Assembly (NCBI GenBank): GCA_003577165.1
Contig: QEUM01000013.1
Coordinates: 62,001 to 126,000, forward strand
Direction of reading: 5' to 3'
Length of the DNA stretch: 64,000 bases
Source of the DNA: Armatimonadota bacterium
GTDB lineage: Bacteria; Armatimonadota; Fimbriimonadia; Fimbriimonadales; ATM1
The position numbers and the translations under genes are program-made. Each line of letters opens with the position of its first letter. Position 1 is the stretch's first letter. Positions 16,951 to 34,339 of this stretch are shown piece by piece. Under the pieces are notes generated by a model that made no database searches, was not told the DNA's origin, and saw only the letters and a list, made by a program, of their open reading frames with translations.

Positions 16951-19410
16951 TTATCTCGCTCGCTGCGTTCGCTTTCGCTTCTTCTTCACGACTTTCGACT
17001 TGTGCTTTCCGTTTCGCGCGGGCTTCTCGAACGCGGCGGCGAGCACCTCGTCGGCCGTGCGCACGAAGCGGGTGTCAAGTTTCTCGCGAATGTCGGCGGG
17101 AATCTCCTCAAGGTAGTCCTTGCGGTTCTGCTCAGGCAGCACGACGGTTCGTATTCCGGCGCGGTGCGCCGCGAGCACCTTCTCTTTGATGCCCCCCACC
17201 GGAAGCACGTCCCCGGACAGCGTCACCTCCCCTGTCATGGCGAGGCGATCGTTGATCTTCTTCCCCGTCATGAGGCTTGTCAAAGCGGTGAGGAGCGTGA
17301 CGCCGGCGCTCGGGCCGTCCTTCGGAATCGCTCCCGCGGGAACGTGAACGTGAATGTCGCTCTTGACGAACGCCTCGGGGTCAACTTCGTATTCGCGAGC
17401 GTGAGTTCGAAGATAACTGAGCGCGGCGCGCGCAGATTCCTTCATCACGTCGCCAAGTTGGCCCGTAAGCACCAGCGAGCCGCTGCCGGGCATCGCGGCC
17501 GACTCTACGAAGACGATCTCCCCCCCCACCGGAGTCCAGACGATGCCAACGGCCACGCCGGGTTTGAGCGTTCTTTCCGCGATTTCATCGCGGAGGAACC
17601 GGGGACTTCCGAGCAACTGCTCGACGCACTCCGGCGTCGTGCTCACGCCTTCCGTTCGGCCCTCTGCGAACATGCGCGTGACCTTTCGGCACACGGCTGC
17701 GATCTCGCGTTCGAGATTGCGCACGCCGGCTTCGCGCGTATAGAACCGCACGAGGTGGCGGAGCGCGGCTCTGCTCCACTGCATCTGCTTGCGATCCAAT
17801 CCGTGCTCGCGCATCTGCTTTGGAACGAGATGGCGACGCGCGATCTCGACCTTCTCCTCCTCGGTGTAGCCGCCGAGTTCGATGACTTCCATCCTGTCTC
17901 TCAGCGGTGGGGGCACTGTGTCGAGCACGTTGGCCGTCGTGATGAAGAAAACGCGGCTGAGATCGAAGGGAGCGTCAATGTAGTGATCGCGGAACGAGTT
18001 GTTCTGCTCCGGGTCCAAGACTTCGAGGAGCGCGGAACTCGGATCGCCGCGAAAGTCGGTGCCGAGTTTGTCCACCTCGTCGAGCATGAACACCGGGTTG
18101 TTGCTCGAGACGCGGCGGAGTCCCTGTACGACCTGCCCGGGCATCGCGCCGATGTAGGTGCGCCTGTGCCCGCGGATTTCCGCTTCGTCCCTCATTCCTC
18201 CGAGCGCGATCCGCAGGAACTTCCTGCCCATCGCGTGCGCGATTGACCTGCCAAGCGAGGTCTTCCCTACGCCCGGCGGGCCGACGAAGCAGAGGATCGG
18301 TTGGCGGATCGTGCCCTCCTTTTTGAATTTGCGAACCGCCAGGAACTCCAGAATGCGCTCCTTGACCTTTTCGAGGCCGTAGTGATCTGCGTCGAGCACT
18401 TTTCGGACGCGGGGCAGGTCGAGGATGTCTTCCGTGCTGATCGCCCAGGGCAGGGAGACCATCCAGTCAATGTAAGTGCGCGCGACGGTGTACTCGGGCG
18501 CGCCCGGCGACATACGGCGGAGGCGGTCTAACTCGCGATTGACTTCCTTGAGGGCGTCTTCGGGCATCTGCGCCGCGTCGATGCGCGCGCGCAACTCTTC
18601 GAGTTCCTCTTCCCTGTCATCTCCGTCCCCCAATTCGCGCTGGATTGCTCGCAGTTGTTCCCGAAGGTAGTAGTCGCGCTGGGATTTGCTGAGTTCGGTG
18701 TTCACCTCGCTCTGCACTTTCGAACTGAGTTCGAGCACGCGAGCCTCACGACCGAGGAGTTCGACGAGCATTCGAAGCCTGTCGCGAATGTCTATGGTTT
18801 CGAGGATTTGTTGCTTGTCCTCGACTGCGAACGGCATGTGCGCCGTGATGAGATCGCCCATCACGTTCGGCTCATGGACCGCTTGCGTCAGGGAGCGGAG
18901 TTCGTCGGGCAACTGCGGGGAGAGGGAGATGCAGCGTTCGAAGAGTTCGCTGACCGTTCGGCGCAGCGCCTCGACTTCGTCGGTCTGCTTGGGATCGATC
19001 GGCTGTTCTTCGACCAGTTCGATCCGCGCGCGGAGGTAAGGCTCCTCTTGTACCGCCTCGACGATTCGAAATCGGACGACGCCTTGGACGATGAGCCGCA
19101 CTGCGTCGGGCAACTTCACCAGCGTGCGGATGATGACGGCGCAGCCGAATCCGTAGACGTCGGAGAACTTTGGGAAGTCGACTGTCGGATCCTTCTGCGC
19201 GATGACGCCGATGATCCGGTTGTTGCTGCTCACCGTGTCGTCAATCAGCTGCACGCTCGGCGGCCGCCCGACCGACAGCGGTGCGATCAGCATCGGATAG
19301 ATAACGGAATCGCGGAGCGGAAGTATCGAGAGAACTTCCGGTATTTCAGGTCTGCGTTCGGTTTCGTCCGTGACGCCTTCGTCTTGGACTTTAAGGTCTA
19401 TCTCCGCCAT
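16951..19410 (-). CDS. lon: ATP-dependent Lon protease
   Basis: An 819-residue bacterial Lon (LonA). The N-terminal substrate-binding domain has LPLRDSVIYPMLIAPLSVGR near 30. The AAA+ module has Walker A GPPGVGKTS and Walker B VFMLDEVDK. The protease domain has the catalytic serine S701 in PKDGPSAG and lysine K744 in GGIKEK. A short Lys/Arg-rich tail (KVVKKKRKRTQRAR) extends the C-terminus. It degrades misfolded and regulatory proteins in the cytoplasm. Its start lies 20 bases inside the upstream small heat-shock gene, implying co-expression under stress. Confidence 0.97.
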   Translation of the reverse strand: MAEIDLKVQDEGVTDETERRPEIPEVLSILPLRDSVIYPMLIAPLSVGRPPSVQLIDDTVSSNNRIIGVIAQKDPTVDFPKFSDVYGFGCAVIIRTLVKLPDAVRLIVQGVVRFRIVEAVQEEPYLRARIELVEEQPIDPKQTDEVEALRRTVSELFERCISLSPQLPDELRSLTQAVHEPNVMGDLITAHMPFAVEDKQQILETIDIRDRLRMLVELLGREARVLELSSKVQSEVNTELSKSQRDYYLREQLRAIQRELGDGDDREEELEELRARIDAAQMPEDALKEVNRELDRLRRMSPGAPEYTVARTYIDWMVSLPWAISTEDILDLPRVRKVLDADHYGLEKVKERILEFLAVRKFKKEGTIRQPILCFVGPPGVGKTSLGRSIAHAMGRKFLRIALGGMRDEAEIRGHRRTYIGAMPGQVVQGLRRVSSNNPVFMLDEVDKLGTDFRGDPSSALLEVLDPEQNNSFRDHYIDAPFDLSRVFFITTANVLDTVPPPLRDRMEVIELGGYTEEEKVEIARRHLVPKQMREHGLDRKQMQWSRAALRHLVRFYTREAGVRNLEREIAAVCRKVTRMFAEGRTEGVSTTPECVEQLLGSPRFLRDEIAERTLKPGVAVGIVWTPVGGEIVFVESAAMPGSGSLVLTGQLGDVMKESARAALSYLRTHAREYEVDPEAFVKSDIHVHVPAGAIPKDGPSAGVTLLTALTSLMTGKKINDRLAMTGEVTLSGDVLPVGGIKEKVLAAHRAGIRTVVLPEQNRKDYLEEIPADIREKLDTRFVRTADEVLAAAFEKPARNGKHKSKVVKKKRKRTQRAR

Positions 19411-19915
19411 TCTCCGTAACAGGTATGGTTCGCCGCGTAACTTCTTCCACCTTCTTCGGAATGCTGACGGTCAGCATCCCGTGGCTCGAACTCCCGCGAA
19501 TCCCCTCCCTGTCTACGCTGACGTCTGGCAGGGCGATCTCCCTTTCGAACTCTCCGAACAGCACTTCCAGTTGATGGCAGCGACACGAACTGGCGCCGCC
19601 GGCCGGCATCCGGTTCCCTCGGATGACGATGGAGTGGCGGTCGGGGACGTAGTGCAGTACCACGCTCTCCGGGTCCACGCCGGCCAACTCAGCCGTGAGG
19701 ACCAGGGCGTCTTCCGTCTCCACCAGATCGACGTTCGGGCACCAGGACCTGCGAGAGATTCCGGTTGCCCCAAAGCCGAGCCTTACCTGGGCGCTCAGTC
19801 TCTGAAACTCGGTTCCCAACTGGTAGAACCATTCTTCGTCGCGACGTCGCCTTGCCAACTCGGTCGAATTATACTTTCGGCCAGGCCGCCGGTATAATCC
19901 GCCCCCGGAGTTCAC
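19391..19915 (-). CDS. Small heat-shock protein (Hsp20/alpha-crystallin)
   Basis: Up to 174 residues. The alpha-crystallin domain runs from about 60 (PNVDLVETEDALVLTAELAGV) to the closing GMLTVSIPKK. It holds unfolding proteins for refolding or for delivery to proteases, which suits the overlap with lon. The start is uncertain. The GTG at 19915 gives the full length, but a TATAAT on the same strand at 19873-19868 lies inside the first 16 codons, so a shorter form beginning at a TTG near 19858 is possible. A CRCHQLEVLFGEF insert in the middle of the domain carries two cysteines, which is uncommon for Hsp20. Confidence 0.88.
   Translation of the reverse strand: MNSGGGLYRRPGRKYNSTELARRRRDEEWFYQLGTEFQRLSAQVRLGFGATGISRRSWCPNVDLVETEDALVLTAELAGVDPESVVLHYVPDRHSIVIRGNRMPAGGASSCRCHQLEVLFGEFEREIALPDVSVDREGIRGSSSHGMLTVSIPKKVEEVTRRTIPVTENGGDRP
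19868..19898. promoter_or_regulatory. Pair of opposed TATAAT boxes between hsp20-lon and secG
   Basis: One TATAAT lies on the minus strand at 19873-19868 and another on the plus strand at 19893-19898. They face away from each other toward hsp20-lon and secG. Both match the -10 consensus exactly, which is striking in GC-rich DNA. The -35 regions are weak (TTATAC with 18 bases of spacing on the minus strand, TATACT with 17 on the plus strand). Confidence 0.55.
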
Positions 19916-22639: not shown

Positions 22640-23845
22640 TTACTGATCGAGAATCAGGATCGGAACTTCGTCCCCCACCCGAACGGCCTGCTCGGCGGGT
22701 ACCCACGCCAGGGCGTCGGCTTGCGCGAGTGAACGCAAACCGAACGATCCCTGCACGGACGGCATTTCTGCGATAGGCAGCTTCGCTCCCGGCGTCAACT
22801 TCACTCGGACGAAGTCGTCGCGCCACTCCGCCTTGTGCTCGAATCCCGACTCTGCGCGCATCCAGACGTCGTGTTCCTCTAGACACCCAGCGATGAGTCG
22901 AATCGCCGGTTTCACGAACAGCGCGAATCCCACGAAGACGCTCGCGGGGTTTCCTGGCAGGCCGAAAACCAGGCACTCGCCGATTTCGCCGAACAGAATC
23001 GGTTTGCCCGGTCGCATCTTCACTCCGTGAAACCGGATCGTGCCCAAGTCCGAGATGACGCGGGCCACGTAATCGTAGTCTCCGACGCTCGCCCCCCCGC
23101 TCACGACCACGATATCCGATTGCGATGCCGCGCGCTGGATGGCTTCGCGTGTGGAGCGCTCATCATCTTGAACGATGACGGCATCCGACACCACCGCTCC
23201 GGCGCGCCTGCTAAGCGCAGCCAGCATCGCTCCGTTCGTCTCTCGAATCTGACCTCCCTCGGGCCTTGCGTCCGGAGGAACGAGTTCGCTTCCAGTGACA
23301 ACGATGGATACCTTTGGCTGATCGCGCACGAGCAACTTGACGATGCCTTGTGATAGGAGAAGCGCGATGCACCCGGAGTTGACGACCGTCCCTTCCTCGA
23401 GCAGGACGTCTCCAGACGAAACGTCAGTCGCGGCGCGGCGGATGTGATCTCCAGGATGCGCGTCTGCGCGAAGAAGGATGAACTCTCCGTCAAGCCCGAC
23501 GTCCTCCTGCATCGCAACTGCCGAGGAGCCGACTGGAACGGGCGCGCCCGTGAAGATCCGGATCGCCGTTCCCGGTGATAGCGGCTTACTGTATTCGCCA
23601 CCTGCCGCGATTTCGCCGATGAGTTTGAGACGGCTCCCCGCCGACAGGTCGGAGCCGTCGCCGAGGGCGTAACCGTCCACAGCCGAGTTGTCGAACAGGG
23701 GATAAGGCTCGACGGCAGCGACCGAGGTCGCGACGACATATCCGTGCGCTTCCTCCGTCCGCATTGTCGTCGTTCGCGCGATGACACGAGTTCGCGCGGA
23801 CGTCGCTGCGATATCGCTTGCTTCACGATACGAAATCAGGTTCAA
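22640..23845 (-). CDS. moeA: Molybdopterin molybdotransferase MoeA
   Basis: A 401-residue protein that inserts molybdate into adenylylated molybdopterin. PLFDNSAVDGYAL (about 48-60), RIFTGAPVP near 95, and SGGASVGDYDYV followed by MRPGKPILFG and GLPGNPASVFVGF are diagnostic of MoeA domains I-III. The C-terminal domain IV has the FGLRSLAQADALAWVP end. Its ATG overlaps the stop of the upstream CBM-like gene by 4 bases, so they are co-transcribed. No other molybdenum cofactor gene lies in the window. Confidence 0.95.
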   Translation of the reverse strand: MNLISYREASDIAATSARTRVIARTTTMRTEEAHGYVVATSVAAVEPYPLFDNSAVDGYALGDGSDLSAGSRLKLIGEIAAGGEYSKPLSPGTAIRIFTGAPVPVGSSAVAMQEDVGLDGEFILLRADAHPGDHIRRAATDVSSGDVLLEEGTVVNSGCIALLLSQGIVKLLVRDQPKVSIVVTGSELVPPDARPEGGQIRETNGAMLAALSRRAGAVVSDAVIVQDDERSTREAIQRAASQSDIVVVSGGASVGDYDYVARVISDLGTIRFHGVKMRPGKPILFGEIGECLVFGLPGNPASVFVGFALFVKPAIRLIAGCLEEHDVWMRAESGFEHKAEWRDDFVRVKLTPGAKLPIAEMPSVQGSFGLRSLAQADALAWVPAEQAVRVGDEVPILILDQ

Positions 23846-25122
23846 GACTTTGCAAGCTCCTTTCTCGCGCGAGCAAGCGTGGCAAGAATGCGAACGGTCG
23901 TTCCGGGCATGAGCGTGCGGGGCTTCGTGGAGATGCTGCGCGAGGTGGGAGGGACGAACTCGGCTATCCCGTCGTCCATTTGCCAGTCAAGTTCCGGTTC
24001 CTCGTGACGAGGGCGTCTGATTGGTTTCGCTTCGGACCCGAGCGCGCCGGGCGCAAACCGCAGCGGGCCCAACACGACGCTCGCGGAATCGAGGCGTCTT
24101 CGTGGCTGAAGTTTAAGTTCGAAGTCGATGCCGTGGTCGCGATGGTTTGGACGCAGGCCGATGGTCCAACGAGCGAAGTCGTTCGCGCCACGCAGTTCGA
24201 CTTGTCCCGGCCCCCCCCTCGCCAACTTCGACCAGAGAGGGATTAGGTCGAGACCTGCGACGCTCAACTGGGCGATGTGATCCAGCACTCCGAAGGTCGT
24301 GCGCCCCATGTCGTCGCCCACGTGGACGGGCGAGTAGTCCATGTCGGTTTCATGTCCCGTGAGGCGGAGTCCTCGGGTCCCAACGGAGTACCAGCCCCTC
24401 GCCTGAACGACGCTCTTGATCGAATCGGCCGCCGGCGGGCGGGGGATGTGCTTGACGCTCGTGCTCGCGATCGATATCTTTGCCGGGCCTGCTTCGAGCG
24501 CAATTTCGAACCGCGCAAGGGCTCGCCTCTGTCTTCCGATGAGCCAGCCCACGCGCGCGACTTCGCCGATTGCGAGCGCCTCGATCGCCTGCTCGGCCTT
24601 GTGTTCCTCCAAAAGGTCCAAGTGCTCCGCCCGCAGATGGGCGAAGCCCGAAGGGGTGGGGGCAGATCCCACATTCGTGAACGCGCAGGTGATCTCAAAC
24701 GGCGCGCCGGGAGCCGTGAACGGGTAACTCGATGAAACCTCCAACACCTTGAAGCGCGGCCCCACAGGCTCCATCCTCACGAAACTGATGCCTGCGTTGG
24801 CCCCTGCTCGCGCCGTGACCTGAACGCGTACCGGAGATTCGTTTGCGACGACTTCGCCGTCCTGAGCCGGCGCGACCATTCCGCTCTGTCCGAGGACGGC
24901 GATCTCACACTTGATCGGGAGCCGGTATCCCACTTCGAGCACGTACCTGGCGCCTGGCAGGACTTCGATCGGGTCACTGCAGATGGCTGCGACCCCCTTG
25001 CCGGGTCGGAGCAAGACGGTGCGCCCGCTCGGCGCGTCGACGAGCGAGACGTTGCCGGGGGTGGCCTCCCATCCGAGCAGGCCTTGTTCGAAGTCGGGAT
25101 TGGGAATCAGGTTCTCGCGCAT
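23842..25122 (-). CDS. Hypothetical protein with CBM-like N-terminus
   Basis: About 426 residues from the ATG at 25122. The start NLIPNPDFEQGLLGWEATPG is the opening typical of galactose-binding-like carbohydrate-binding modules. A CARDB-like beta domain follows (PFTAPGAPFEITCAFTNVG), then a C-terminal beta-rich region with GWYSVGTRGLRLTGHETDMD. There is no signal peptide, which is odd for a sugar-binding layout. A start at 25170 would add 16 residues but cross into the divergent kinase gene. The function is not recognised. It is co-transcribed with moeA, with no obvious link. Confidence 0.65.
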   Translation of the reverse strand: MRENLIPNPDFEQGLLGWEATPGNVSLVDAPSGRTVLLRPGKGVAAICSDPIEVLPGARYVLEVGYRLPIKCEIAVLGQSGMVAPAQDGEVVANESPVRVQVTARAGANAGISFVRMEPVGPRFKVLEVSSSYPFTAPGAPFEITCAFTNVGSAPTPSGFAHLRAEHLDLLEEHKAEQAIEALAIGEVARVGWLIGRQRRALARFEIALEAGPAKISIASTSVKHIPRPPAADSIKSVVQARGWYSVGTRGLRLTGHETDMDYSPVHVGDDMGRTTFGVLDHIAQLSVAGLDLIPLWSKLARGGPGQVELRGANDFARWTIGLRPNHRDHGIDFELKLQPRRRLDSASVVLGPLRFAPGALGSEAKPIRRPRHEEPELDWQMDDGIAEFVPPTSRSISTKPRTLMPGTTVRILATLARARKELAKS

Positions 25123-25129
25123 TCCGTCT

Positions 25130-27367
25130 ATGCTTATTGTGGCGTCACGCACGGCATTGGAATCGGACACGCTCGTCGCGGACCGCTATCGCGTGCTATG
25201 GGAGTTGGGCAGAGGCGGGTTCGCCATCACCTATTGTGCTGAGGACTCCGTCGCCGGTTGCGAAGTAGCGCTCAAAGAACTTCTGCCTCCCGGAACTACC
25301 CGGCTGGCGGACGGCAGCCTGCAGTATCCGGACTCCATCACGCACTCCGCAGTCACCGACTTCCTGGAGGAAGCCCGGTTGCTCGCGAAGTTGAACTGCC
25401 CCCGCGTCGTGTGCGTCCTCGACGCGTTCCGCTGGCAGGGGGCTGCCTTTGTGGTGATGGAGTTGGTTTCGGGCGCGAAGCCGCTCAGCGACCTCATCAA
25501 GGAGCGGACCCGCCTCGATGAAGCTACAGCCCGGAGGATCTTCGAGGGACTTGCGGAAGGGCTCGAGGCCATCCATGATCGCGGATATCTGCACCGCGAC
25601 GTCAAGCCGAGCAACGTGCTCATCACCTCTTCCGGCGATCCAGTCCTGATCGATTTTGGATCTGCGAGGGAGTGGTCGCAGGACAAAACGATGCGGCACA
25701 CGACCTTCTTCACGCCAGGATATGCGCCAATCGAACAACTAAGTGAGCGCGGCAGGCGCGGCCCTGCGTCCGACATCTACTCTTTGTGCGCCACGACGTA
25801 TGAGATGCTCACCGGAATCACGCCGCCCTCCGCGACGGATCGCGTCACAGGCGTGCCTTTGCAGAGCGTTCTCGTCGTCGCGCCGCAGGTTTCAGATTCG
25901 TTTGCCAGGGCGATTCACTCCGGCCTCGAATTGGAGGCATCCAAGCGACCGCAGTCCATTCGCGAATTGTTGGCGATTCTGGAGCCGGTCACCGACTCTG
26001 CATCCGTCCCAACGCTTCCTTCGGAACTGCTTGAAGAGGACGCGACGATTTCCGCGATAGAGGAGTTGCGTTACGACTCGAACGAATGTCCTGCGTGTGG
26101 CGACCTGCTCGATACTCCCCGGCTGCCGGCATCTCACACTTGTCTTGCGTGCGGAATCGCCAAGGTCCGCGTCAAGGCGCTCGACGAACGGCTCTGTCCC
26201 GTTTGCAGACATGGGTTCTTGCGAGAAGTGGACAACATGCGCAAGCCGAACTACTGCCCCATCTGCAAGGTCGGAAAACTCGACAAGCGCGGCATCGGGA
26301 TCCGCACGCGATACGCGTGCAAGGGCTGCGGCGCGGCGTTCACTTATCGAAGGGGCTCAATGGCGGTCGAGTCTTTTGGTTCTGTGGATTCTGAGTTGGT
26401 CTCGGAGGGCGTCTACCACGACTACGTGGACTACTGGCTTCCGATCAGCGGTCGGTCCGACATAGTCCTGGAGTGTCGAGAGTGCTTGGCGCAGTTCGAC
26501 GAAAGCGGGGACGGAAGAACGCTTACACTTCGTGCCTTCACCGACGATCCCTACGGCGTTGCGTCAACTCATCGGACTCTAACTCGAGAAGAGTGGTCGC
26601 GCGTCGCGGCCGGCGTGGCCGTCGAAGGGGGCAACGCAGTGTGCCCGTCGTGCGGCGCGGAGTACTTCGTGGGCGAGGCCACGATGACGCTCATCGAATC
26701 TACGACCGAGGACGTGTTCGTTCAGTGGGTCATCGGCCGACGCTTCGACTTCGAGTCAGCGCGATGGGTCGCCGCTCGCAAGTCGTCCGGCCGTCCGGGA
26801 CCGGTTTGTAGAGGCTGCGGCCTCGAGTTCGACGAGGACGGGGACTTTCTTCGGCTCGTCGCCGCAGACTCTGAGCCCTTGACTTTCTGGATCGGAAAGG
26901 CGTTCCCCGCGGACGATTGGCACAGAATTGCGAGGAACCTGCCGATTCGAGCCGATGAGGACCGCTACCGAAGTCAGTTCGAGGAGCACTTACGGAAGGC
27001 GGTCGTAGAGGGAGACATCGAGGTGGCCACGGGCCGCGATCCGGATGTCGTGTGGAGATGTTCCGCAACGCTCGAATCCGACAGCGGGGAGGCAGCCGGC
27101 GAACTCGAACTCAACGACGGCGTTCTAAAGTTCCATTCTCGGAAGCACAGGTTCGCGATTCCGATTGACACCATTACAAACGTAACCGTCGAAGGCGACC
27201 ACCTGGTCTTCACATCGCCTGCGAACCCGGCGCCTGTCCGCCTCACCGTGCCGGCGACGATGCTCGAAGTTCAGATCGGCACACGCCCTCGTTCGGTGCG
27301 CTTCACGGCCCGGGACGTTGCGCAAATGATGGCGGCTCGCGGCGCTGAATTGCCGCTCGACGCGTAG
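25130..27367 (+). CDS. Hanks-type Ser/Thr protein kinase fused to multiple zinc ribbons and a PH-like domain
   Basis: A 745-residue soluble protein. The kinase domain has a glycine loop GRGGFA near 28, catalytic lysine K49 (VALKE), HRDVKPSN at 155-162 and DFGSAR at 175-180. GYAPIEQ replaces the usual APE. From about 325 there are at least six CxxC knuckles (CPACG, CLACG, CPVCR, CPICK, CKGCG, CRECL) and later CPSCG and CRGCG, forming several zinc ribbons. The last 100 residues (LELNDGVLKFHSRKHRFAIP) resemble a PH-like fold. No membrane segment is present. The start is the ATG at 25130, with GTG 25139 or TTG 25157 possible. The substrate is unknown. The opposite-strand neighbour starts only 7 bases away. 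Confidence 0.82.
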   Translation: MLIVASRTALESDTLVADRYRVLWELGRGGFAITYCAEDSVAGCEVALKELLPPGTTRLADGSLQYPDSITHSAVTDFLEEARLLAKLNCPRVVCVLDAFRWQGAAFVVMELVSGAKPLSDLIKERTRLDEATARRIFEGLAEGLEAIHDRGYLHRDVKPSNVLITSSGDPVLIDFGSAREWSQDKTMRHTTFFTPGYAPIEQLSERGRRGPASDIYSLCATTYEMLTGITPPSATDRVTGVPLQSVLVVAPQVSDSFARAIHSGLELEASKRPQSIRELLAILEPVTDSASVPTLPSELLEEDATISAIEELRYDSNECPACGDLLDTPRLPASHTCLACGIAKVRVKALDERLCPVCRHGFLREVDNMRKPNYCPICKVGKLDKRGIGIRTRYACKGCGAAFTYRRGSMAVESFGSVDSELVSEGVYHDYVDYWLPISGRSDIVLECRECLAQFDESGDGRTLTLRAFTDDPYGVASTHRTLTREEWSRVAAGVAVEGGNAVCPSCGAEYFVGEATMTLIESTTEDVFVQWVIGRRFDFESARWVAARKSSGRPGPVCRGCGLEFDEDGDFLRLVAADSEPLTFWIGKAFPADDWHRIARNLPIRADEDRYRSQFEEHLRKAVVEGDIEVATGRDPDVVWRCSATLESDSGEAAGELELNDGVLKFHSRKHRFAIPIDTITNVTVEGDHLVFTSPANPAPVRLTVPATMLEVQIGTRPRSVRFTARDVAQMMAARGAELPLDA

Positions 27368-29387: not shown

Positions 29388-30149
29388 ATGACGGTCTCCG
29401 AGATGCCAGCGCCACGATTCACCTCAGAAGTCATCGACGCCTATCGGCGAGACGGATGGATGAAGGTCGGCAAAATCCTCACTGACGAAGAACTTGGAGA
29501 GGTGCGTGATCATGTGGACGACTTGGTGGCTCGTCTGAAGCCGGGGGAGCGACCCGAGAACTTCGACATGCTGCATCTCAAGGATCCCTACATGATGGAC
29601 CTTTGCAGGCATCCGCGAATCCTCGATCTCATCGAGCAGTTCATTGGCCCGAACATCGTTCTTTTCGCGTCGCACCTCATTTGCAAGCCGGGCGGAGACG
29701 GGAAAGCGGCGCCGTGGCACCAGGATTCGACCTATTGGCCGCTCGAACCGATGGAGATCATGACGCTCTGGCTGGCCATAGACGAGTCAACGCCGGAAAA
29801 CGGATGCATGCGCGTGATTCCCGGAACCCACACGTTGGGCGAACTCGACCACGTGCAGCAGGATACGGACGCCAACATCCTGCACCTCGGTCTTGACATC
29901 AGCCGGTTTTCCGACAGGCCGATCATCGATTGCGTGCTTGCGCCGGGAGAGTGCACTCTGCACGAGGCTCGACTCGTTCACGGAAGCGCGCCGAATACGT
30001 CCACGAAGCGAAGGGCCGGATACACGATGCGCTTCATGCCGGCCTCCACCAAACTCATTCGAGACCGCGAGAGGTTTTACGAGAACCATCCGATCTTCTT
30101 GCTTCGCGGCTCGGATCCCGAAGGCAACAACCAGTACGCGAACGCTTGA
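29388..30149 (+). CDS. Phytanoyl-CoA dioxygenase (PhyH) family protein
   Basis: A 253-residue Fe(II)/2-oxoglutarate-dependent oxygenase. The metal ligands are H111 and D113 (WHQDSTYW) and H198 (LVHGSAPN), with a basic group just after (TSTKRRAGYTMRF) for 2-oxoglutarate. A conserved ENGCMRVIPGTH block sits near 137-148. Bacterial members hydroxylate diverse small molecules, so the substrate is open. No Shine-Dalgarno sequence is evident at the ATG. Its stop overlaps the TTG of the arsC-like gene by 3 bases. Confidence 0.88.
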   Translation: MTVSEMPAPRFTSEVIDAYRRDGWMKVGKILTDEELGEVRDHVDDLVARLKPGERPENFDMLHLKDPYMMDLCRHPRILDLIEQFIGPNIVLFASHLICKPGGDGKAAPWHQDSTYWPLEPMEIMTLWLAIDESTPENGCMRVIPGTHTLGELDHVQQDTDANILHLGLDISRFSDRPIIDCVLAPGECTLHEARLVHGSAPNTSTKRRAGYTMRFMPASTKLIRDRERFYENHPIFLLRGSDPEGNNQYANA

Positions 30150-30577
30150 AGCTGTCGGTCCTTGTCGTTTGTCGGCACAACAGCGCCCGCAGTCAAATGG
30201 CTGAAGCCTTCCTGAAGCGGGAATGCCCTGATTTTGAAGTGGAGAGCGCAGGCCTCGAGGCAGGCGCCCTGAATCCCTATGCCGTAGCCGCAATGGCCGA
30301 GGTCGGCATCGACATATCGGGACGAACGCCTCGGTCGCTTCCGGCGGTGCATGGCAGGCGATTCGATGTGGTCATCGCGGTGTGCGACGCGGAGGCAAGC
30401 CGAAAGTGTCCGGTGTTCCCGGGTGAGGTGGAGCGACTGCATTGGCCGTTTCCTGATCCGGCCTCATTCGACGGGTCTCATGTCGAAAAGATGCAGCGCA
30501 CTCGCGAGGTTCGGGATGCGATCCTCCGGGCGGTCAAGCAATTCTGTGTTCAGAGATGTGGCAGTTCCGCGGTATAG
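30146..30577 (+). CDS. arsC: Arsenate reductase, low-molecular-weight phosphatase type
   Basis: 143 residues from a TTG. The P-loop CRHNSARSQMAEAF (C9 nucleophile, R15) begins right after the first strand. VCDAEASRKCPVFPG supplies the further cysteines of the thioredoxin-coupled ArsC relay, and WPFPDPA is the late aspartate motif. The SQMAEAF ending and the extra cysteines favour arsenate reductase over protein-tyrosine phosphatase. No arsenite pump or ArsR regulator is adjacent, so a role outside arsenic resistance is possible. The TTG overlaps the PhyH stop. The 3' end overlaps rdgB by 28 bases on the other strand. Confidence 0.85.
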   Translation: MKLSVLVVCRHNSARSQMAEAFLKRECPDFEVESAGLEAGALNPYAVAAMAEVGIDISGRTPRSLPAVHGRRFDVVIAVCDAEASRKCPVFPGEVERLHWPFPDPASFDGSHVEKMQRTREVRDAILRAVKQFCVQRCGSSAV

Positions 30578-32749: not shown

Positions 32750-33862
32750 CTACTTCTCGGTCCGAACGGACTTCCGGAACTGCTCGAAGAAACCGCCGGT
32801 TTTCGAGTCTGTGTTCTGTCCAGTGAAAGACTTTTGGAGTTGCTCAAGAAGGTGTCGCTGGTAGTCCGTCAGTTCACGCGGAACGCGCACGACAAGTCGA
32901 ACGCGGAGATCGCCCCTCTTCGTGGACCCCATCGCCGGTATTCCCTGCTCGCGAACGCTGATCTCTTGGCCAGGTTGGGAACCGGGGGGGATGACTAAAT
33001 CGAACTCACCGTCAACGCCCTGCAAACGAACCGTGGCTCCGAGCGCCGCTTGAGGATACGTGATCTCGACTTGAGTGAGCAGGCCCTTCGAGTCGCGAAT
33101 GAAGCGCGCGTCCTCTTGGACGTTCACGACGACGTACAAGTCCCCTGGGCGACCACCGTTTACTCCGTCGTCCCCTTGGTACGGGAGGTGAAGTATTGTG
33201 CCGCTCTCGACGCCGCTCGGAATTGCGACATCCACGTCGACGTCCTTCTCTTCGAGCATCTTTCCTTTGCAGGCCTTGCATGGCTTGCGGTTGACTCGTC
33301 CCTCCCCCCCGCATCGGCGGCAGGTGGCGGTGCGACGGATGTGCCCGAGCAGAGTCTGCGTCACTTCCATGACGACTCCCGCCCCCCCGCAATCCTCGCA
33401 CGTCTCCGGCTGATAACCCGGGATCGTGCCCGAGCCGTTGCATTCGGAGCATGTCTCCATTCGACGGAAGGAGAGTTTCTTGTGTGTGCCTGTCACCACT
33501 TCCTGCAGGGTGACGGCGACTTGCGCCTTCAGGTCTCGGCCGTCGACGATCCTCGGTCCGCTGCGCCTCGCGGATCCAACGCCGAAGAACATCTCGAAGA
33601 TGTCGGCGATCCCGCCCGTGAAGTCTGCAGCGGGACCTCCGTCTGAGACTCGCCCAAACCTGTCGTATTCCGCGCGCTTCTTGGGGTCGCTGAGAACGGC
33701 GTAGGCTTCGCCGATCCGTTTGAACTTCTCCTCCGCATCGGGATCGTCCCGGTTCACATCGGGGTGAAGTTTGCGTGCCTTCCGGCGGAAGGCTGCCTTG
33801 ATTTGGTCGGCGTCGGCGTCGCGGGGAACGCCGAGCAGGGCGTAATAGTCCTGCTCAGGCAT
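32750..33862 (-). CDS. dnaJ: Chaperone DnaJ
   Basis: A 370-residue type I Hsp40. It has a J domain with HPD (residues 36-40, LHPDV), a short Gly-rich region, four zinc motifs ([24 protein letters not shown] and CKACKGK) and C-terminal substrate domains. The last zinc motif has lysine instead of the final glycine. It activates DnaK. No dnaK or grpE is adjacent. It starts 6 bases after the rpoZ stop. Confidence 0.96.
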
Positions 33863-33868
33863 CGGAGG

Positions 33869-34339
33869 CTACTCTTCGAATTCCTGGACGCTCATTCCGG
33901 AGGCGTCCTCGTCGGTCGCCATCGTCCCACCGAAGTCCTCCAAGTTGAACTCCTCCTCGATCTCTTCGAGCTCCGACGTCGACTCGTCGACGAGGGAATC
34001 GAGGGCGACGAGGTCCGCCAGAGCGCTTTCGCTGACGACCGAACCCCGCTCCGTTCCAGCGAACAGGTCGTGGATGGAGGCCTTCTCGGCTGCGCCGAGT
34101 TGGAGGTTGTCGAGCGCGTCCCTTCCCTCGCCCAACTCGCTGGGCACCTCGAAGACTGGAACGACCGCGCCCACGGCGATCTCTTCGAGCGCAATCGTGA
34201 GAGGGTGCTGTGATCGGGTTTCGACGAGCATGGGAGCCTTGTCACGCGACAACTGGGTGGCGCGCCTCGCCGCCAGGTTCACCAGAGTGAACTTGCTCGT
34301 GAATTCGTCGAGTTTTTCGCCGTGCGGATAGAGAGCCAT
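33869..34339 (-). CDS. rpoZ: RNA polymerase omega subunit with long acidic tail
   Basis: 156 residues. Residues 8-52 (LDEFTSKFTLVNLAARRATQL then the QHPLTIALEEIAVG block) are the omega fold, which wraps the beta-prime C-terminus and aids assembly. The remaining 100 residues are acidic (SELEEIEEEFNLEDF and similar), roughly doubling the usual length. The ATG has only a weak upstream GAGGATC. A TATACT on the minus strand at 34386-34381 is a likely -10 about 40 bases upstream. It leads the dnaJ-prmA-rph-rdgB run. Confidence 0.85.
   Translation of the reverse strand: MALYPHGEKLDEFTSKFTLVNLAARRATQLSRDKAPMLVETRSQHPLTIALEEIAVGAVVPVFEVPSELGEGRDALDNLQLGAAEKASIHDLFAGTERGSVVSESALADLVALDSLVDESTSELEEIEEEFNLEDFGGTMATDEDASGMSVQEFEE

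Follow-up and report, generated by a model that had tools for sequence, protein, structure and literature searches.

A gene in the window (the whole 64,000-nucleotide stretch of DNA analysed) encodes a protein in which a kinase domain is followed by a short linker, four short CxxC hairpins, four long CxxC-Trp repeats and a PH/GRAM domain. We propose that this protein is an orphan cytosolic Hanks-type kinase whose placement or gating depends on a zinc-stapled cysteine arm together with a PH dock, a reading that we regard as plausible, if slightly short of evenly balanced. Both end domains, kinase and PH, are of known kinds; by sequence comparison, the arm between them has no described family. 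The features concerned are:
25130..27367 (+), whole kinase gene: open reading frame of 745 aa
25187..25951 (+), Hanks-type Ser/Thr kinase domain, residues 20-274: PF00069, E 3.4e-37, found in the same place in the whole genome
26075..26311 (+), short-knuckle block s1-s4, residues 316-394: four homologous hairpins of ~20 aa, net basic
26312..26959 (+), long-repeat block u5-u8, residues 395-610: four homologous repeats of ~52 aa, net acidic
27032..27349 (+), PH/GRAM-like domain, residues 635-740: structure model, structural match, and bPH_6 in relatives
23842..25122 (-), divergent neighbour gene, ~425 aa: not shown to be part of the kinase system

The kinase domain and the PH/GRAM tail

Three candidate start codons are present in the gene (ATG 25130, in-frame GTG 25139 and TTG 25157), and the choice among them leaves every domain of the protein untouched. 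The Pfam Pkinase model matched residues 20-274 with 128.7 bits, above the curated cut-off of 31.7, and the motifs GRGGF (27-31), K49, HRDVKPSN (D157) and DFG (D175) are intact, which confirms the complete kinase domain (K49, D157, D175) claimed in an earlier, sequence-only reading of this DNA. Because the catalytic residues are intact, the kinase is very likely to be active in its own species. The nearest solved sequences are those of PpkA (E 8.7e-35) and StkP (3.5e-24). The source genome contains two further Pkinase genes, both lacking the cysteine arm.

In a hydrophobicity scan of the protein, no segment scored high enough to form a transmembrane helix (the highest mean over 19 residues is 1.27); as predicted, then, the kinase is soluble and cytoplasmic, and the earlier description of it as soluble is borne out. 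The NCBIfam model of PASTA kinases (PknB_PASTA_kin) matched the kinase part only, with 141.6 bits against a cut-off of 450. PADLOC matches to known anti-phage kinases (MADS6 and PD-T4-6) were confined to residues 11-303, that is, to the kinase domain, and an antiphage role was dropped for this reason.

Single-sequence AlphaFold runs (residues 305-745 and 312-408) gave a confident model of the PH tail alone and no usable model of the arm, so the structure prediction that had been suggested for the C-terminal region resolved the tail and failed for the rest. The tail model (~635-740) is a PH-type barrel, with beta strands followed by a helix and a pLDDT of ~85-90 in most of the domain. Its alignment with PH/GRAM structures (VIA-align) gave a Z of about 10-11 over 80-91 residues, and 5 of 24 relatives match bPH_6, the best of them with E 6e-4. 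As modelled, the tail is a member of the PH/GRAM domain superfamily, in keeping with the PH-like tail noted earlier.

The cysteine arm and the proposed pairing of its knuckles

Eight CxxC motifs (knuckles) start at residues 320, 338, 356, 376, 397, 449, 505 and 560. With 17 cysteines in the last 435 residues, 0.6 such motifs would be expected by chance, and 5000 shuffles yielded at most 5. All eight are conserved in 27-30 of 28-30 aligned relatives, and because of these eight conserved pairs the arm is predicted, with high confidence, to bind zinc. The 16 cysteines can form at most four Zn(Cys)4 sites. Thus, the strings of knuckles described in the sequence-only reading are real (eight CxxC in the 425 residues of arm and tail), while its "at least six ribbons" are too many.

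The repeat structure was analyzed by cutting a 49-sequence family alignment into units, which were compared by hhalign. The short units carry the CxxC pairs 320/323, 338/341, 356/359 and 376/379, and of these s2, s3 and s4 matched one another with probabilities of 95-97%, and s1 matched them with 78-91%. The long units (397/400, 449/452, 505/508 and 560/563) matched in all pairs with 96-98%; each is composed, in this order, of the CxxC, a strand often containing [E/Q]FD and a Trp-bearing helix. The knuckle is the sole part common to short and long units, and the same unit numbers (four short and four long) occur in both deep lineages. The median net charge is +9 for the short block, which is basic in every family sequence, and -14.5 for the long block, which is acidic in nearly all; the two blocks are therefore complementary, and the arm is acidic overall because the long block outweighs the basic short one.

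No described zinc-ribbon family matched the window kinase above its cut-off (best zinc family 15.1 bits versus 30.8), and across the relatives the best E was 3e-5, and each family was matched in fewer than half of the members. Nothing in Pfam or NCBIfam covers the arm, and a solved-structure profile search with the C-terminal alignment gave weak, assorted zinc-finger matches only (best E 0.003). The s4-u5 stretch is weakly similar to ribosomal L37ae, below the cut-off. No paper was found on an architecture of kinase, cysteine arm and PH/GRAM domain, which agrees with the earlier remark that no characterised bacterial kinase has this order.

The knuckles must pair, as two cysteines alone cannot hold a structural zinc, and their losses among relatives suggest how. 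Knuckles 1 and 8 have been lost together in genus g22 (L028, L024, L099), and L094, separate from g22 on the tree, lacks one cysteine of each; knuckles 4 and 5 have been lost in L030 and L098, and knuckles 2 and 7 in L100. All four co-loss events obey i+j=9, with a chance of 1/7 each and ~4e-4 jointly before allowing for the post-hoc choice of pattern. Three pairs (1-8, 2-7 and 4-5) being given by co-loss, knuckle 3 would pair with 6 by exclusion. These losses point, somewhat more strongly than not, to a nested, antiparallel ladder with rungs 1-8 (320/323 with 560/563), 2-7 (338/341 with 505/508), 3-6 (356/359 with 449/452) and 4-5 (376/379 with 397/400). The equal number of units and the opposite charges of the blocks are in agreement with such a pairing. 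However, a single alignment both suggested this pairing and supplied the evidence for it, and one of the four events is a single long-branched sequence (L100). Two unpaired lesions speak against the ladder: a half-lost knuckle 8 with knuckle 1 intact in the g27 clade, and a half-lost knuckle 2 with knuckle 7 intact in L087. Knuckle 5 is shortened in two g22 sequences (L024 and L099). Mutual information between alignment columns was noise at this alignment depth.

Distribution, gene neighbourhood and loss of catalysis

A search with the arm profile identified the family in 49 of the 113 genomes of the window's order (one further match, a transposase, is not counted) and, elsewhere in the phylum, in three genomes (G113, G115 and G138); this second count is a lower bound, since the phylum-wide search scored six candidates per genome. 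The three outliers have the same order of kinase, four short units, four long units and PH domain, and the eight CxxC are kept in nearly all relatives, G115, G138 and G113 included. Two of the outlier kinases (L086 and L087) carry an extra N-terminal CxxC zinc ribbon. In the kinase of G115 (L085), an extra CPVC...CPEH insertion was observed within the kinase domain, along with additional CxxC pairs between kinase and arm. A scan of genome contigs with the window protein alone gave one match in Verrucomicrobia, limited to the kinase, and the arm was not found in viral contigs, in plasmids or in a sample of 145 Verrucomicrobia genomes.

The divergent neighbour adjoins the kinase gene in 5 of 5 checked loci of the window's own family. 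It has no Pfam match, and the N-terminus of one homologue weakly matches CBM_4_9. Judging by the MxNLIPN motif at which its homologues likewise begin, its start is probably within ~10 bases of the kinase ATG; this leaves next to no room for a shared promoter, unless the kinase uses a later start. In a sister family (L039, L041, L042, L046, L048, L050, L051 and L052) a different neighbour, secreted-looking and with the conserved motif G(F/Y)(I/L)P(I/V)(L/M)GG, lies upstream; it is divergent and not homologous to that of the window. The outlier neighbourhoods have nothing obvious in common. As no neighbour gene is conserved family-wide, the context names no substrate or input.

Several other genes were observed in the vicinity. 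A MoeA-like molybdopterin gene (22640-23845, -) adjoins the divergent neighbour, and this pair recurs in three other genomes of the family. A gene 3 kb away from the kinase gene, at 29930-30577 (+), resembles those for low-molecular-weight phosphatases or arsenate reductases (VVCRHNSARSQMAEA); it was not seen beside the kinase in relatives. Chaperone or protease genes lie at 16951-19410, 19391-19915 and 32750-34339 (Lon and Hsp20-like; DnaJ and GrpE-like or a similar small gene).

Catalytic residues have been lost in six lineages. These are: (i) g22 (D157 to G or N), (ii) L098 (D157 to N), (iii) L101 (K49 to N), (iv, v) g27 and L100 (all catalytic residues) and (vi) L019/L033 (K49 and the DFG Asp). 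Lesions of the ladder occur in 4 of the 6 pseudokinase lineages versus 3 of 34 others (Fisher p = 0.005, treating lineages as independent). This joint decay, a tendency expected if the ladder serves the kinase, hints at a coupling of ladder and catalysis, and relaxed constraint would explain it too. The coupling is not strict, because there are exceptions both ways: L019/L033 and L101 have lost catalytic residues and kept all knuckles, and L094 and L030 have a complete kinase and a damaged ladder. The pseudokinase domains are under purifying selection, with kinase-region dN/dS of 0.035 and 0.10 in two close pairs; that of a third pair (L031/L033) is 0.35, on very few changes. In most regions, dN/dS is ~0.03-0.13, in active and pseudokinase pairs alike. 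To judge by these residues, in some relatives the kinase is dead and the arm is retained.

Proposed mechanism, alternatives and known systems

In the mechanism that we propose, the short and long blocks would run antiparallel, and their knuckles, as inferred from co-loss, would share four zincs as the rungs of a ladder. Rung 1-8 would pin the exit of the kinase (knuckle 1) beside the entry of the PH domain (knuckle 8), and if this tie is real, the PH domain would lie beside the kinase, with the ladder projecting outward. Ladder and PH tail might then position the kinase and gate it; that the arm regulates catalysis at all is an evenly balanced proposition. The ladder could be altered by a partner protein, by membrane lipid contacting the PH domain, or by a change in zinc or redox state; each is a candidate signal. 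Where the kinase is dead, arm and pseudokinase may persist as a binding scaffold. Taken to its full extent, the proposal is of a new regulatory fold, in which two unlike tandem arrays join antiparallel as a ladder of four zincs; this ladder would hold the kinase next to its PH domain, switch it in response to zinc/redox state or partner binding, and have outlived catalysis in several lineages. In this complete form the proposal is tentative and rather unlikely.

Instead of folding back, the arm could be a row of at least two conventional double zinc ribbons, made by pairs such as 1-2 or 2-3, 4-5 and 6-7, that bind protein partners or substrates. The resemblance of s4-u5 (376/379 with 397/400) to a classic ribbon, the weak matches of single members to zinc-ribbon models and the spacings of 14-20 between the first knuckles, typical of ribbons, all fit such an arrangement. 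It would not, however, predict the co-loss of 1 and 8 in two separate lineages, or that of 2 and 7 in one, and no loss confined to pair 1-2, 2-3, 5-6, 6-7 or 7-8 was seen, so that we hold it to be a doubtful alternative. Another possibility, a little less likely again, is a narrower form of our preferred explanation, namely that the kinase senses zinc or redox state, with zinc loss or thiol oxidation opening the ladder and switching the enzyme, a logic likened to that of the rubredoxin module of PknG. Sixteen conserved cysteines and the enrichment of ladder lesions in dead-kinase lineages are in its favour, but a Zn(Cys)4 site often has a structural role alone, and no redox or metal gene consistently adjoins the kinase gene.

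The suggestion, already made in the sequence-only reading, that the kinase senses nucleic acids or ribosomes would have the zinc arm bind RNA or DNA and turn the kinase on, by analogy with the effect of DNA on YabT. Zinc ribbons are often nucleic-acid binders, every member has a basic short block, and there is the weak L37ae similarity of s4-u5; yet the acidic long block makes the arm net negative, and no nucleic-acid-binding family was matched at a meaningful score, all such zinc-ribbon similarities being below cut-off. The suggestion thus fared poorly, and we consider it improbable. It is more improbable by far that the gene is a degenerating, lineage-specific one whose arm is functionally unconstrained: its scattered occurrence within the order (49 of 113 genomes) and the repeated loss of catalysis would suit such a history, but the eight knuckles are preserved over deep divergence and the low dN/dS in most regions argues against it.

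Most characterised bacterial Hanks kinases signal via an extracellular or a small intracellular module. The present family would give such kinases a cysteine-rich arm and a PH/GRAM dock, a combination of domains better known in eukaryotic signalling. Nested zinc sharing, if true, would be a new way of building a large zinc-stapled domain, and the repeated conversion to pseudokinases, with the arm under selection, provides a series of natural variants in which the role of the arm by itself can be studied.

The zinc sharing proposed for the arm has a parallel in the cysteine-rich domain of DnaJ, whose four CxxCxGxG motifs share zincs 1-4 and 2-3, nested along a hairpin. The window arm differs from it in having twice the knuckles, CxxCxxG/CxxCxxEFD instead of CxxCxGxG, two unlike repeat types and no J domain; in a test for the DnaJ domain, none of the eight CxxC was a CxxCxGxG and no Pfam match was obtained in the window kinase. 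The fold of the tail is that of the PH-GRAM domains of myotubularin, LRBA and neurofibromin (PDB 2yf0, 1t77, 7r03; Z 10-11), with 7-18% sequence identity, from which no ligand can be inferred.

With Hanks kinases of the PpkA/StkP/PknB type (PDB 5hnv, 9ruj), the window kinase has the kinase domain in common. The remaining parts differ: StkP and PknB have membrane segments with PASTA repeats, the window kinase a PH domain and a soluble arm of cysteine knuckles. The bacterial N-terminal zinc-ribbon kinases (Zn_Ribbon_1/DZR plus Pkinase) possess a ribbon like that of the outliers L086 and L087; the window kinase lacks it, and its C-terminal arm is the distinguishing part. PknG of mycobacteria has the order rubredoxin, kinase, TPR. 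It resembles the window kinase in being a bacterial Ser/Thr kinase that is soluble and has a Cys4 metal module next to its catalytic domain. In PknG, however, the module is a single rubredoxin at the N-terminus, and TPRs form the C-terminal part, where the window kinase has its eight knuckles and PH domain; neither rubredoxin nor TPR was significantly matched in the window kinase (one chance-level RUBY_RBDX match, 6.6 bits). YabT of Bacillus subtilis is a Hanks kinase regulated by an intracellular ligand, DNA, and, like the window kinase, has no extracellular sensor; unlike it, YabT is membrane-anchored, with a basic juxtamembrane motif and no cysteine arm (PMC6333020, PMC3708118). PknG, for the metal module, and YabT, for the response to DNA (PMC6333020), are thus precedents for the window kinase, neither of them with this design.
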